From assembly GCF_900100495.1 (NCBI RefSeq), contig NZ_FNCT01000020.1, forward strand, positions 1-64,000: DNA of 64,000 bases, given 5' to 3'. The notes below the pieces were generated by a model, which ran no database searches, was not told where the DNA came from, and saw only the letters and a program-made list of their open reading frames with translations. This document shows positions 3,611 through 40,710 of this stretch, piece after piece (position 1 is the stretch's first letter; each line of letters opens with the position of its first letter). The DNA comes from Pseudomonas benzenivorans (GTDB lineage Bacteria; Pseudomonadota; Gammaproteobacteria; Pseudomonadales; Pseudomonadaceae). A program made the position numbers and the translations under genes.

Positions 3611-4075
3611 ATGCCCAATCACTCCAAACCGCATGCTCACCGCCTGCGGACCGGCCGCTATCCCGAGCCGGGGCGCAGCTATTTGCTGACGACGCTCGTG
3701 CAAGACCGCAATCCCCTCTTCTCTGACTGGCGCTTGGGCCGCCTGCTGGTTCAAGAGCTCAGGCGGGCCGAAGACGAGAGCCTGGTAGTTTCCTTGGCCT
3801 GGGTCGTGATGCCCGATCATCTGCATTGGCTGATCGAGTTGATCGACGGTTCCCTGGAAACGCTCATGCGCCGGGTCAAATCGCGTAGCACCTTGGCGAT
3901 TAACGCTGCCAATGGGCGCTCAGGCCAGCTTTGGCAGCGTGGCTATCACGATCACGCCGTGCGTCGTGAGGAAGACTTTAAAGCGCTTGCACGTTATGTG
4001 GTGGCCAATCCGCTACGTGTCGGGCTGGTCGGTCACATTGGTGATTACCCGCTCTGGGATGCGATCTGGCTGTAG
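3611..4075 (+). CDS. rayT: REP-associated tyrosine transposase (RAYT, Y1/HUH family)
   Basis: A 154-aa single-strand DNA transposase-like protein related to IS200/IS605 TnpA that is thought to recognise and mobilise REP sequences. The metal-binding HUH motif is visible as MPDHLHWLIEL (H-L-H), and the nucleophilic tyrosine is probably the one in GYHDHAVR, followed by the family block ARYVVANPLRVGLV. The N-terminus (RLRTGRYPEPGRSYLLTT) is also typical. The ATG at 3611 follows GAAGGA with almost no spacer, so translation may be weak. It is flanked by inverted REPs and is convergent with the efflux operon. It probably runs as a non-autonomous resident gene rather than as a mobile IS. Confidence 0.9.
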   Translation: MPNHSKPHAHRLRTGRYPEPGRSYLLTTLVQDRNPLFSDWRLGRLLVQELRRAEDESLVVSLAWVVMPDHLHWLIELIDGSLETLMRRVKSRSTLAINAANGRSGQLWQRGYHDHAVRREEDFKALARYVVANPLRVGLVGHIGDYPLWDAIWL

Positions 4076-20942: not shown

Positions 20943-21042
20943 CGTAGGGTGGGTTAGCGCAGCGTAACCCACCGATGCCGCGCATGCGGCGTGGTGCTGG
21001 CGGGTTACGCCGCCCTGCGGCTAACCCGCCCTACGGGGGCAC
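20943..21042. repeat. GTAGGGTGGGTTA-type palindromic repeat
   Basis: CGTAGGGTGGGTTAGCGCAG opens the element and CTAACCCGCCCTACGGG closes it as the inverse. Two further internal GTAACCC/GGGTTAC arms lie between. This is the main content of the gap between the DUF5655 gene and the toxin-antitoxin pair. A related core lies inside the element at 38255-38542. Confidence 0.8.
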
Positions 21043-36928: not shown

Positions 36929-38137
36929 ATGACTTCCATATGGCGTACCAGTGGCTGGGTGTTGCTCGGCGCATCGCTGATCCTGGCGCTGTCGCTGGGC
37001 ATTCGCCACGGCTTCGGCCTGTTCCTGGCACCGATGAGCGCCGAGTTCGGCTGGGGGCGCGAGGTGTTCGCCTTCGCCATCGCCCTGCAGAACCTGGTCT
37101 GGGGCCTGGCCCAGCCGTTCGCCGGCGCCCTGGCCGACCGCTTCGGCGCGCAGCGCACGGTGCTGGTCGGCGGCGTGCTGTATGCCGTCGGCCTGGGGCT
37201 GATGGGCCTGGCGGACTCGGCCTGGTCGCTGTCGCTGAGCGCCGGTCTGCTGATCGGCATCGGCCTGTCCGGCACCTCGTTCTCGGTGCTTCTCGGCGTG
37301 GTCGGCCGCGCCGTGCCGGCGCAGCAGCGCAGCATGGCCATGGGCATCGCTGCGGCGGCGGGTTCCTTCGGCCAGTTCGCCATGCTGCCGGGCAGCCTGG
37401 GCCTGATCGGCTGGCTCGGCTGGTCGGCGGCACTGCTCGCCCTCGGTCTGCTGGTGGCCTTGATCGTGCCGCTGGCGGCGATGATCAAGGACAATCCGCT
37501 GCCGACGCAGGGCCACGAGCAGAGCCTGGGCGAGGCGCTGCGCGAGGCCGGTGGCCATTCGGGGTTCTGGCTGCTGGCGCTGGGCTTCTTCGTCTGCGGC
37601 TTCCAGGTGGTATTCATCGGCGTGCACCTGCCGGCCTACCTGGTCGACCAGCACCTGCCGGCGATGGTCGGCACCACGGTGCTGGCGCTGGTCGGCCTGT
37701 TCAACATTTTCGGCACCTATATCGCCGGCTGGCTCGGCGGGCGCATGGCCAAGCCACGTCTGCTCAGCGCGTTGTACCTGGCGCGGGCGGTGGTGATCGG
37801 CGCCTTCGTCATGGCGCCGCTGACGGTGTGGAGCGCCTACGCCTTCGGCATCGCCATGGGCCTGCTGTGGCTGTCCACAGTGCCTTTGACCAACGGCACG
37901 GTGGCGACCCTGTTCGGCGTGCGCAACCTGTCGATGCTCGGCGGCATCGTCTTCCTCTTCCACCAGCTCGGCGCCTTCCTCGGCGGCTGGCTGGGCGGCT
38001 ACCTGTACGACCAGACCGGCAGCTACGAGCTGGTCTGGCAGATCGCGATCCTCCTCAGCCTGATGGCCGCGGCGTTGAACTGGCCGGTGCGCGAGCAGCC
38101 GGTGGCGCGCCTGCAAGGCGCCGGAGCCGTGGCGTGA
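36929..38137 (+). CDS. MFS transporter
   Basis: A 402-aa major facilitator with about 12 predicted membrane helices. The loop 2-3 motif is GALADRFGAQRTVLVGG and the N-terminal helix contains LALSLGIRHGFGLFLAPMSAEFGWGRE, typical of the monocarboxylate/oxalate-formate-type subgroup. The substrate is unknown. It follows the cob genes, a position I recall as conserved in P. aeruginosa, so a link to corrinoid metabolism is possible but unproven. AAGGA lies about 7 nt before the ATG. Confidence 0.88.
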   Translation: MTSIWRTSGWVLLGASLILALSLGIRHGFGLFLAPMSAEFGWGREVFAFAIALQNLVWGLAQPFAGALADRFGAQRTVLVGGVLYAVGLGLMGLADSAWSLSLSAGLLIGIGLSGTSFSVLLGVVGRAVPAQQRSMAMGIAAAAGSFGQFAMLPGSLGLIGWLGWSAALLALGLLVALIVPLAAMIKDNPLPTQGHEQSLGEALREAGGHSGFWLLALGFFVCGFQVVFIGVHLPAYLVDQHLPAMVGTTVLALVGLFNIFGTYIAGWLGGRMAKPRLLSALYLARAVVIGAFVMAPLTVWSAYAFGIAMGLLWLSTVPLTNGTVATLFGVRNLSMLGGIVFLFHQLGAFLGGWLGGYLYDQTGSYELVWQIAILLSLMAAALNWPVREQPVARLQGAGAVA

Positions 38138-38256
38138 GCACGAAAGCCTGGCTGGGCGCCGGGCTGCTGGCCGGCGCCGTCGTGCTGGCTCTGATCGTCT
38201 GGGGCTGGCGGCAGGGCGGCCTGGCTGTGCTGCAGCTGGGTTTGGGTGCCTGCTAG
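38134..38256 (+). CDS. Small single-pass membrane protein (40 aa)
   Basis: A GTG-started frame overlaps the MFS stop codon (GTGA). The product, beginning MSTKAWLGAGLLAGAVVLAL and continuing IVWGWRQGG, has one hydrophobic helix followed by a basic residue. The stop TAG overlaps the first bases of the 288-bp inverted-repeat element (38255-38542), so the original C-terminus may have been longer. I do not recognise a family. Coupling to the transporter suggests an accessory peptide. Confidence 0.5.
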   Translation: MSTKAWLGAGLLAGAVVLALIVWGWRQGGLAVLQLGLGAC

Positions 38257-38542
38257 TGTCCTGCCAATCCTGAAATGTCGGATAGCTGTAGGGTGGGTGG
38301 GGCCGCCTAGGTCGGGCCGCGCAGGTTAGCGGCGCCAACCTCCAAACGATCAGACACCGCCATCGTGGTGCGCCGCGTAACCCACCAGGCGATATTCTTG
38401 CGTTGCGCCGATGGTGGGTTACGGCGCAACGGATCTTGTTGGTTCATCGCTATCGGCGGCGTGCGCCTAACCCACCCTACAGGGGATCGCGGTACAGGGG
38501 TAAGACCGCGATTAGCCGACATTTCAACGGTGTCGTGACACT
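38255..38542. mobile_element. 288-bp element with 27-bp terminal inverted repeats
   Basis: The left end (38255-38281) starts AGTGTC and ends TGAAATGTCGG. The right end (38516-38542) is the inverse, CCGACATTTCA to GACACT; the outer 6 and inner 11 bases are identical, with differences in the middle. It has no coding capacity. The interior holds GTAGGGTGGGT palindromes and the motif GGGGCCGCCTAGG. It fills most of the 415-nt gap between the small ORF and the lipase gene. Confidence 0.65.
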
Positions 38543-38616
38543 AACTGTGAACGCTCGGTAGCCGACCCTTCACCCATCTGGGCGATGGGCCGGTCACGTA
38601 CACCTCCTTAGACTCG

Positions 38617-38632
38617 TGGCACGCCGGACGCA
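38617..38632 (+). promoter_or_regulatory. Candidate sigma54 (-24/-12) promoter of the lipase operon
   Basis: TGGCACG-CCGG-ACGCA has the GG (38618-38619) and GC (38630-38631) elements at the correct 10-nt spacing, with a perfect -24 box and a weaker -12 box (AC instead of TT). Transcription would start about 30 nt before the lipase ATG. Sigma54 control is reported for lipA of P. alcaligenes. The same bases also belong to a hairpin (38618-38647). Confidence 0.45.
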
Positions 38633-38647
38633 GTCTCCCGGCGTGCC
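38618..38647. repeat. Perfect 10-bp inverted repeat before the lipase gene
   Basis: GGCACGCCGG and CCGGCGTGCC are separated by 10 nt. There is no T-tract after it, so it is unlikely to be a simple terminator. It may be a regulator-binding dyad or an mRNA 5' hairpin. Confidence 0.7.
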
Positions 38648-38671
38648 CACAAGAACAACAAGGAGGCACCC

Positions 38672-39598
38672 ATGCGTCGCGTTATCAGCACAGCCCTGGC
38701 CGCCCTGGCCCTGGCCGGCGCCGTCGAGGCCCAGGCCGGCTACACCCAGACCAAGTACCCGATCGTCCTGGTGCACGGCATCACCGGGTTCGACACCATC
38801 GGCGGCCTGGTCAACTACTTCCATACCATCCCCTGGAACCTCGAGCGCGACGGCGCCAAGGTCTATGTCGCCAGTGTCGCCGCGTTCAACGACAGCGAGC
38901 AGCGCGGCGCCGAGCTGGCCCGGCAGATCGTGCCCTGGGCCGGCGCCAATGGCGGCAAGGTCAACCTGATCGGCCACAGCCAGGGCTCGCCGACCTCGCG
39001 GGTGGCGGCATCCCTGCGCCCCGACCTGGTCGCCTCGGTGACCTCGATCAACGGGGTCAACAAGGGCTCCAAGGTCGCCGACGTGGTGCGCGGGGTGGTG
39101 CCGCCGGACAGCGCCATCGAAGGCGGCGCCGCGGCCATCGCCAACGCCCTCGGGGCGGTGATCAACCTGCTGTCCGGCAGCGACAACCCGCAGGACGGCC
39201 TGGCCGCCCTGGAGACCCTGACCACCCCCGGTACCGCGGAGCTGAACAGCCGCCATCCCTGGGGGGTGAACAACGCCAGCTACTGCGCCAAGTCCAGCGA
39301 AGTGCACAACGTGCGCGGCTACGACATCCGTTACTTCTCCTGGACCGGTAACGCCGCCTACACCAACCTCTTCGACGCGGTCGACCCGTTCCTGGCGATC
39401 ACCGGCCTGGCCTTCGCCGGCGAGAAGAACGATGGCCTGGTCGGCGTCTGTTCGACCTACCTGGGCCAGGTGCTCGGCGACAGCTATCACATGAACCATG
39501 TCGACGCGATCAACCACCTGTTCGGCATCCGCGGCTGGACCGAGCCGGTGTCGCTGTATCGCCAGCACGCCAATCGCTTGAAGAACAAGGGCGTCTGA
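38672..39598 (+). CDS. lipA: Secreted triacylglycerol lipase (family I.1/I.2)
   Basis: A 308-aa secreted lipase with a signal peptide (MRRVISTALAALALAGAVEAQA). The oxyanion-hole block YPIVLVHGITGFD is followed by the nucleophile elbow GHSQG with S103. The catalytic acid is D254 (KNDGLVGVC) and the histidine is H276 (MNHVDAIN). C205 and C260 correspond to the conserved disulfide. The C-terminus SLYRQHANRLKNKGV is typical. It needs the foldase encoded next for folding and is expected to leave through the type II secretion system. GHSQGS replaces the GHSHGG of P. aeruginosa LipA. A strong GGAGG precedes the start. Confidence 0.95.
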   Translation: MRRVISTALAALALAGAVEAQAGYTQTKYPIVLVHGITGFDTIGGLVNYFHTIPWNLERDGAKVYVASVAAFNDSEQRGAELARQIVPWAGANGGKVNLIGHSQGSPTSRVAASLRPDLVASVTSINGVNKGSKVADVVRGVVPPDSAIEGGAAAIANALGAVINLLSGSDNPQDGLAALETLTTPGTAELNSRHPWGVNNASYCAKSSEVHNVRGYDIRYFSWTGNAAYTNLFDAVDPFLAITGLAFAGEKNDGLVGVCSTYLGQVLGDSYHMNHVDAINHLFGIRGWTEPVSLYRQHANRLKNKGV

Positions 39599-39642
39599 GC
39601 ATCTTGCGGGCTGCGTCGTGCAGCCCGCCATCCGGAGGTCGC

Positions 39643-40710
39643 ATGCCTTTGCCTGTGCGTTTCTTCGTGCTGACGGCCGTGCTGGTCGTCGGCGCCGCCG
39701 GCCTGACCCTCTACTGGCAATGGCCGGCCGCCATTCCGGCCGCTGCCGGCCAAGCCGTCACGGCTGCTCCGCCCGCGACCCCGCCCAGCCCCCTGGTGCC
39801 CCAGCCAACGCCCGCCGTGGCCGAGCGTGCGGTGGCCCAGCCGCTGCTGCCGGAGATGGCCGGCACCGAGGTCGATGGCGAGCTGCAGACCGACAGCGCC
39901 GGCAATCTGCAGCTGAGCCTGGGCGTGCGCGACTACTTCGATTACTTCCTCAGCGCCGCCGACCAGGCCGGCCTGGAACGGGCCGTCGAGGCCCTGCTGG
40001 CCGACGCCGGCGGGCGTCTGCAGGAACCGGCGCTGGGCCAGTTGATCGGCCTGCTGGGCGATTACCTGGACTACAAGCGCGCCAGCCTGGCGCTGCTGCA
40101 ACAACCGCTGAGCGCGCAACAGCAGGCCCGCCCGCAGGAGCAGATGGCCGCCCTGCAGCAGGCCTTCGACAGCCTGGCGCAGCTGCGCCGCACGCATTTC
40201 TCGGCCGGCGCGGTCGAGGCGCTGTTCGGCGCCGAAGAAGCCTATGCCCGTTACACCCTCGACAGCCTGGCGCTGCTCGGCCGCGACGACCTGGGCGAGC
40301 AGGCCAGGGCCGCGGCGCAGCAGCGCCTGCGCGAACAACTGCCGGCGGCCCTGCGCGCCAGCGAGGAGCGGCAGAGCCAGGCGCTGGCGCAGCAGGCGCA
40401 GAGCGAACGGCTGTGGCGCGAGGGTGCCAGCGAGGAACAGGTGCGCGAGTTCCTCGCTCTGACCTATGATCCGCCGACGACCGAGCGCCTGCTCGCCGAG
40501 CAACGCGATGAGCGCGCCTGGCAGCAGCGTTACGCCGCTTATCGAGACGAACTGGCCAGCCTGCAGGGCGATGGCCTCAGTCCGGCGGACCGGCGCCACG
40601 AGCAGCAACGCCTGCGCCAGCGCCTGTTCGGCGCCGCAGACCAGCACCGGGTGGACACCTATGACGCGATTGCCGCCAAACAGCAGGACGCCGCCCGGCC
40701 CCGGCCCTGA
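39643..40710 (+). CDS. lifO: Lipase-specific foldase (lipase chaperone)
   Basis: A 355-aa steric chaperone anchored in the inner membrane by an N-terminal helix (FFVLTAVLVVGAAGLTLYW), followed by a P/A-rich linker (about residues 28-65). The diagnostic RxxFDY(F/C)LSA motif is present as RDYFDYFLSA. The C-terminal part is a long series of charged helices that wrap the lipase. The start follows GGAGGTCGC. It lies 44 nt after lipA, so the two form the usual operon. Also named LipB, LipH or Lif. Confidence 0.95.
   Translation: MPLPVRFFVLTAVLVVGAAGLTLYWQWPAAIPAAAGQAVTAAPPATPPSPLVPQPTPAVAERAVAQPLLPEMAGTEVDGELQTDSAGNLQLSLGVRDYFDYFLSAADQAGLERAVEALLADAGGRLQEPALGQLIGLLGDYLDYKRASLALLQQPLSAQQQARPQEQMAALQQAFDSLAQLRRTHFSAGAVEALFGAEEAYARYTLDSLALLGRDDLGEQARAAAQQRLREQLPAALRASEERQSQALAQQAQSERLWREGASEEQVREFLALTYDPPTTERLLAEQRDERAWQQRYAAYRDELASLQGDGLSPADRRHEQQRLRQRLFGAADQHRVDTYDAIAAKQQDAARPRP

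Follow-up and report, generated by a model that had tools for sequence, protein, structure and literature searches.

The 286-bp unit between an MFS transporter gene and a lipase-like gene of Pseudomonas benzenivorans is very probably a non-autonomous IS630-type MITE with a REPIN-like pair inside, moved in trans. In the window, the whole 64,000-nt stretch of DNA analyzed here, the mobile unit probably spans positions 38256-38541 and is flanked by TA (38254-38543 with both TAs included). Its ends are inverted, GTGTC on one side and GACAC on the other.

The element and its insertion site

The features of the region are as follows.

36929-38137, + strand: MFS transporter gene (NCBIfam matches below curated cut-offs)
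38134-38256, + strand: small ORF of 40 aa overlapping the end of the MFS gene, its stop codon being the insertion site (41-codon relatives in L160 and L156)
38254-38255, unstranded: left TA, putative target duplication; completed by the element's first G, it gives the TAG that stops the small ORF
38256-38281, + strand: left terminal inverted repeat (21 of 28 positions common to the right end, TA included)
38288-38388, + strand: left GTAG-tagged REP hairpin of the core (boundaries by eye)
38296-38323, + strand: an additional 28 bp within the left REP arm, made up of two related 14-bp units (from the alignment of copies)
38411-38480, - strand: right GTAG-tagged REP hairpin, in the opposite orientation to its left counterpart in the core (boundaries by eye)
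38486-38512, unstranded: small palindrome ATCGCGGT..ACCGCGAT in the right arm (by eye and alignment)
38516-38541, - strand: right terminal inverted repeat (21 of 28 positions common to the left end; inner part coding in related IS)
38542-38543, unstranded: right TA, putative target duplication (from the sequence)
38672-39598, + strand: lipase-like gene (one weak NCBIfam lipase match, below cut-off)
39604-40710: lipase-chaperone-like gene, 3' of the lipase-like gene (NCBIfam match below curated cut-off)

A repeat search of the window scored the inverted ends as a 31-nt pair that is 74% complementary. When the left and right 28-nt ends are aligned from the TA, 21 of 28 positions are identical with the TA included: TAGTGTC and TGAAATGTCGG complete, plus three in between. 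Compared with the left end, none of the window's 1,913 other TA-anchored 28-mers scores above 17/28, and the end pattern with up to three mismatches occurs at 16 places in the organism's own genome versus one for the reversed control. Therefore, the pairing of the ends is beyond chance. The unit appears to have no transposase gene of its own, the longest interior ORF being 71 aa, as in a MITE. The initial annotation had placed terminal inverted repeats here with TA on both sides, and both stand.

That annotation also had the element ending the small ORF. The TAG formed at the left end is indeed the stop codon, but the ORF is not truncated, since orthologues without the element stop at the same place. 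Relatives of the ORF (L160:1315-1440 and L156:1303-1428) are conserved, hydrophobic, 40-41 aa in length and overlap the end of the MFS gene; a Pfam search with the small ORF gave no matches. Window positions 37800-39300 were searched against 29 genomes, of which 28 matched, mostly in the MFS part. The MFS and lipase-side matches are 88 bp apart in a Pseudomonas MAG (G719) and 60 bp apart in P. taeanensis (G722), the element being absent from both. In these two genomes the ORF is 41 codons long, stop excluded, and terminates at the endpoint of the window ORF, the C-termini being GIC-TAG in G722, GVC-TGA in G719 and GAC-TAG in the window, where the G is supplied by the element. Truncation of the small ORF by the element is rejected, as the G719 and G722 versions already end there; the stop is regenerated and the conserved 40-41-aa ORF is not cut short. 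Judging from the right flank, the stop codon before insertion was probably TAA. It counts against the IS630-type MITE reading that in the two empty places the alignment of the right flank stops short of the insertion point.

In G118 and G720 the MFS and lipase-side matches are about 661 and 604 bp apart, and in G118 the lipase is preceded by another gene. The upstream region was read in five of the seven loci around the empty place, all but L158 and L162, which came out in the opposite orientation. It differs in L163, and in L155 and L159 the lipase follows another gene. The sequence TCACCCATCTGGGCGATGGGC, found at window positions 38568-38592 and downstream, 5' of the lipase-like gene, is kept in L155, L156, L159 and L160 and may be a regulatory site.

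Target preference and a candidate IS630 partner

The comparison of target sites used 41 distinct paired elements, the false pairings L005 and L143 having been dropped and three plasmid IS loci left out. TA is kept at both outer ends in 29 of the 41, and the sites of those 29 are CTAG (23), TTAG (3), CTAA (2) and CTAC (1). In the window CTAG accounts for 40 of 974 NTAN sites, a rough background only, as the elements come from several phyla. IS630 itself prefers a CTAG target. The window element's own site is CTAA, not CTAG, which counts against the IS630 reading. A P. borbori copy (L077) lies at the centre of a palindrome, GCCTGC-TA-GCAGGC. The TA flanks suggest that the element duplicated its TA target. 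ISY100, of the IS630 family, inserts at TA in vitro with duplication of the TA (PMC2170065).

A search for PF13358 (DDE_3) gave 15 matches in six of the nine end-bearing genomes. At three of these 15 loci the match is bounded on either side by the ends, with one mismatch at most.

L142, P. dryadis, 214-1430: complete IS, ends on both sides
L143, Prolixibacteraceae, 881-2089: ends on both sides, CA in place of TA on the left
L147, Prolixibacteraceae (same genome as L143), 1368-2568: ends on both sides

The P. dryadis IS belongs to the IS630 family and measures 1,217 bp, counting one TA at either end. The transposase gene is in two frames, which join at a stretch of A with a C behind it, and the Pfam domains in L142 and L143 are HTH_32 and DDE_3. 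Against the NCBIfam IS630 model the second frame scores 172.5 bits in L142 and 169.3 bits in L143 (cut-off 100), and the first frame 58 and 61 bits, under that cut-off; the L142 first frame also matches IS481 and ISNCY models weakly. The transposases of the related IS end in RLYP(T/S)F, and these residues are encoded by the inner part of the right end. Among plasmids, 659 records carry a relative of the second frame, one of them annotated ISPna1, and TAGTGT ends lie on both sides of ISPna1 (L248) and of copies in Azotobacter and Caballeronia.

Agreement between IS ends and window ends reaches 23/28, with 20-22/28 for the P. dryadis IS. The terminal repeats thus appear to be shared with IS630-family IS, weakly so for ISPna1 itself: the ISPna1 and Azotobacter ends agree with those of the window at only 16-19 of 28 positions, little above the chance best of 17, which counts against the IS630 reading. 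It also counts against this reading that the likeness of the element to the IS is limited to the ends, that L143 has CA at its left end, and that L149, whose second frame is 57% identical, has no such ends in the stretch searched. A further point against it is that a PF13358 search of the organism's own genome (G000), an assembly of 44 contigs, gave zero matches. As no IS630 transposase was detected there, the element looks orphaned, or its partner lies in contig gaps. A remnant MITE need not have such a partner beside it, though the lack of one bears on whether the element can still move. In P. dryadis (L142:190-215) the complete IS630 abuts a MITE end and shares CACTAGTG with it, as if the IS had inserted into CTAG at the edge of the MITE.

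The element was probably moved by the IS group of ISPna1 and P. dryadis L142. Under this scenario, an IS630-family transposase of that group (HTH plus DDE), supplied in trans, would bind the 28-bp ends and excise the unit by a predicted cut-and-paste reaction. The unit would then be joined to a TA, preferably within CTAG, and the TA duplicated. The target TA here would be that of the small-ORF stop codon, and frame and stop would have survived because the insertion TA was the stop codon's own. The inverted GTAG-tagged REP pair would travel inside the shell, the REPIN having possibly been captured and later amplified along with it.

The REP core, its copies and other interiors

The core consists of two inverted GTAG-tagged palindromic REP units, REPIN-like, and GTAGGGTGGGT is present at 38288 (+) and 38480 (-). 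With the 288 bp as query, the own genome yielded 55 matches at E <= 10. The copy at C36:106217-106478 has the core and both ends; there are both ends with a degenerate right outer end in the copy from C32:241622, and a truncated copy at C36:66405-66532; the genome thus holds at least two further copies with both ends plus one truncated. The core also occurs free of the ends (C33:79776-79940, C30:645633-645797 and C16 up to 85174), and a free-standing GTAG-tagged REP pair like it, one arm with one mismatch, lies at window positions 20944-21034. Of 95 near genomes, the own one included, five match the 288 bp at E <= 1e-8, and the four others (G001, G008, G012 and G014) match only positions 70-227, the core without the ends.

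The initial annotation had noted that the palindromes inside also stand alone in the genome, which these free pairs bear out. Its suggestion of a repeat nested in, or carried by, a MITE gains support from the copies, from the IS630 with similar ends and from the places without the element. It had proposed looking for other genomic copies, for an IS with such ends and for an empty site in relatives, and had staked the idea on a second copy or an IS with similar ends existing in Pseudomonas; further copies, the P. dryadis IS and the empty orthologous places in P. taeanensis and the Pseudomonas MAG were all found.

The same ends also surround other interiors. Several of the 16 end-pattern places in the own genome hold a different REPIN (GTGGGAGCGGC..GCCGCTCCCAC, about 146 bp). 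One such copy (L073), used as query, gave 56 own-genome matches: six run essentially end to end (query 1-5 to 142-144), and 26 other places, by our own count, match only inside 23-137, mostly the REPIN without ends. In P. dryadis a third REP-like interior, itself with GTAGGAGCG..CGGCTCCTAC units, lies between the same ends. Copies from Comamonadaceae, Chlorobiota, Prolixibacteraceae and Desulfosediminicola (162-186 bp) contain hairpins and, by eye, no GTAG REP.

An alignment of seven copies (A1, 304 columns) points to a mosaic history. The 28 extra bases in the left REP arm are found in the window copy only; two copies have 14 and four have none. The right arms of the own C36 copy and of the P. 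borbori copy (C56) are unlike those of the remaining copies. Among the seven copies having the right-arm palindrome, in which core orientation was compared, the REP core is flipped relative to the MITE arms in the own copy from C32:241622 onward (L031), while the window copy, L093, L090, L078, L076 and L133 agree. These arm swaps and the core flip suggest recombination at the REP cores. The 14-bp unit (GTCGGGCCGCGCAG or GTGGGGCCGCCTAG) is inserted at one same point of two kinds of GTAG REPs, twice in tandem in the window copy. Its pattern GGGCCGCSYAGG has 132 occurrences in the own genome versus 16 for the reversed control. Among 29 distinct contexts taken from 30 loci, 22 have GTAGG no more than 40 bp upstream.

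There are three Y1_Tnp matches in the own genome. One RAYT-like match (C37:67949-68116, L187) is surrounded by six GTAGGGTG(C/T)G REPs, whose sequence is a sister of the core's and not the same, and another (C21:25399-25728, L186) by three GTAGGAGCGGGCC REPs. The match in the window (3686-4003, L185; 36.8 bits) falls within an 882-aa open frame.

The distribution of the ends is wide but patchy. A scan of genome contigs for the exact degenerate end pattern gave 27 stretches, some of which (e.g. L084, L096) have a single end only in the stretch read. Within Pseudomonas they come from P. dryadis, P. borbori, P. taeanensis, P. daroniae and Pseudomonas MAGs, and further afield from Desulfosediminicola, from one Comamonadaceae MAG and from MAGs of Gemmatimonadota, Bacteroidota, Chlorobiota and Prolixibacteraceae. 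The end pattern matches 6 of 298 genomes of the genus, the own one included, and 1 of 398 in a sample of the phylum, the own one only. Twelve genome handles, picked for having hits and partly representing the same genome twice, have 2 to 46 ends each, with a single control hit in one handle. Plasmids gave zero matches to the element; with sister copies and a 34-nt end as queries, short partial matches turned up in 1, 1 and 3 plasmid records and are taken for REP parts or chance. Viral contigs gave zero exact matches to two end patterns. In a Prolixibacteraceae MAG (G725) several contigs start or stop no more than about 100 bp from where an element ends, as would happen if assembly broke at the repeats.

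Alternative explanations and related systems

The whole 286-bp unit might instead be a REPIN cluster moved by a RAYT, a tyrosine transposase, with the outer repeats incidental. The three Y1_Tnp matches in the own genome, that on C37 amid its six REPs, and the core without ends in the own genome and in 4 of 94 other relatives are as expected under this explanation. However, the ends enclose several unrelated interiors, have TA and CTAG flanks and bound IS630 genes, making a RAYT origin improbable for the unit as a whole. The CTAG target also raised the possibility that the MITE belongs to a different DDE family that uses CTAG-like sites, such as IS5, for which there is a precedent in MITEPsy1 of P. 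syringae, tentatively assigned to IS5, with a CTAG or YTAA target and a 4-nt duplication (PMC3189936). This origin, slightly less probable still, was set aside because IS630 transposases exist with these very ends.

It is least likely of all that the unit is a structured regulatory element under selection between the MFS and lipase units, its mobility past or irrelevant. The element does lie between two co-directional units, and its strand folds strongly, at -84.8 kcal/mol, whereas 200 shuffles average -55.3 kcal/mol and none does as well (z = -6.87). Yet G719 and G722 lack it at the orthologous position, its copies are found at unrelated loci, and Rfam gave zero matches for the window stretch of the element. 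On five related loci, Rfam gave just two sub-threshold matches to microRNA models, both in L083.

Discussions of how REPINs spread and persist usually centre on RAYT enzymes. A group of IS630-type MITEs may act as REPIN carriers in Pseudomonas, with at least three REP-like interiors, offering a second, RAYT-independent route of spread in which core recombination swaps arms and can flip the cargo; we put this forward tentatively and consider it rather doubtful. If true, DDE-type ends have repeatedly enclosed REPINs and the repeats can also ride an unrelated transposition machine. A TA/CTAG preference, moreover, can place an insertion in a stop codon of a GC-rich genome and leave the gene unbroken. 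Should only the ordinary part hold, the outcome is a further IS630-type MITE family, spread widely but patchily across taxa. The MITE itself is of an ordinary kind, and the modest novelty lies in one set of DDE-type ends with differing REPINs. The literature titles and abstract openings surveyed describe no REPIN inside an IS630-type MITE, and the papers searched for ISPna1 do not mention it; neither is proof of absence.

Of the known systems, the ISPna1 group of IS630 (Polaromonas naphthalenivorans CJ2 plasmid pPNAP02, L248) has TAGTGTC..GTCA ends and TA flanks in a CTAG context, as here. End identity with the window element is 16-18/28 for ISPna1 and 20-22/28 for the P. dryadis IS. The group differs in having a transposase gene, a two-frame HTH/DDE one in the relatives L142 and L143, which the window element is without. 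The RUP elements of Streptococcus pneumoniae are short MITEs related to IS630-Spn1, with IS630-like ends and target duplications (PMC3049150); RUP is a simple 107-bp AT-rich repeat, whereas the window element holds a GC-rich REP pair. ISY100 (IS630/Tc1-mariner) uses the mechanism proposed here, cut and paste into TA (PMC2170065), but is an autonomous IS of a different subgroup. The double inverted repeats of P. putida and P. fluorescens have degenerate GTAG units beside unrelated stem-loops in hundreds of copies and belong with tyrosine-transposase genes; the main text describing them mentions neither IS630 nor GTAGGGTGGG (PMC3733652). REPINs and GTAG REPs associated with RAYT likewise have two inverted GTAG-tagged REP units, as in the core (PMC3116915, PMC3733652), but the window pair instead sits within the ends of a DDE-type element.
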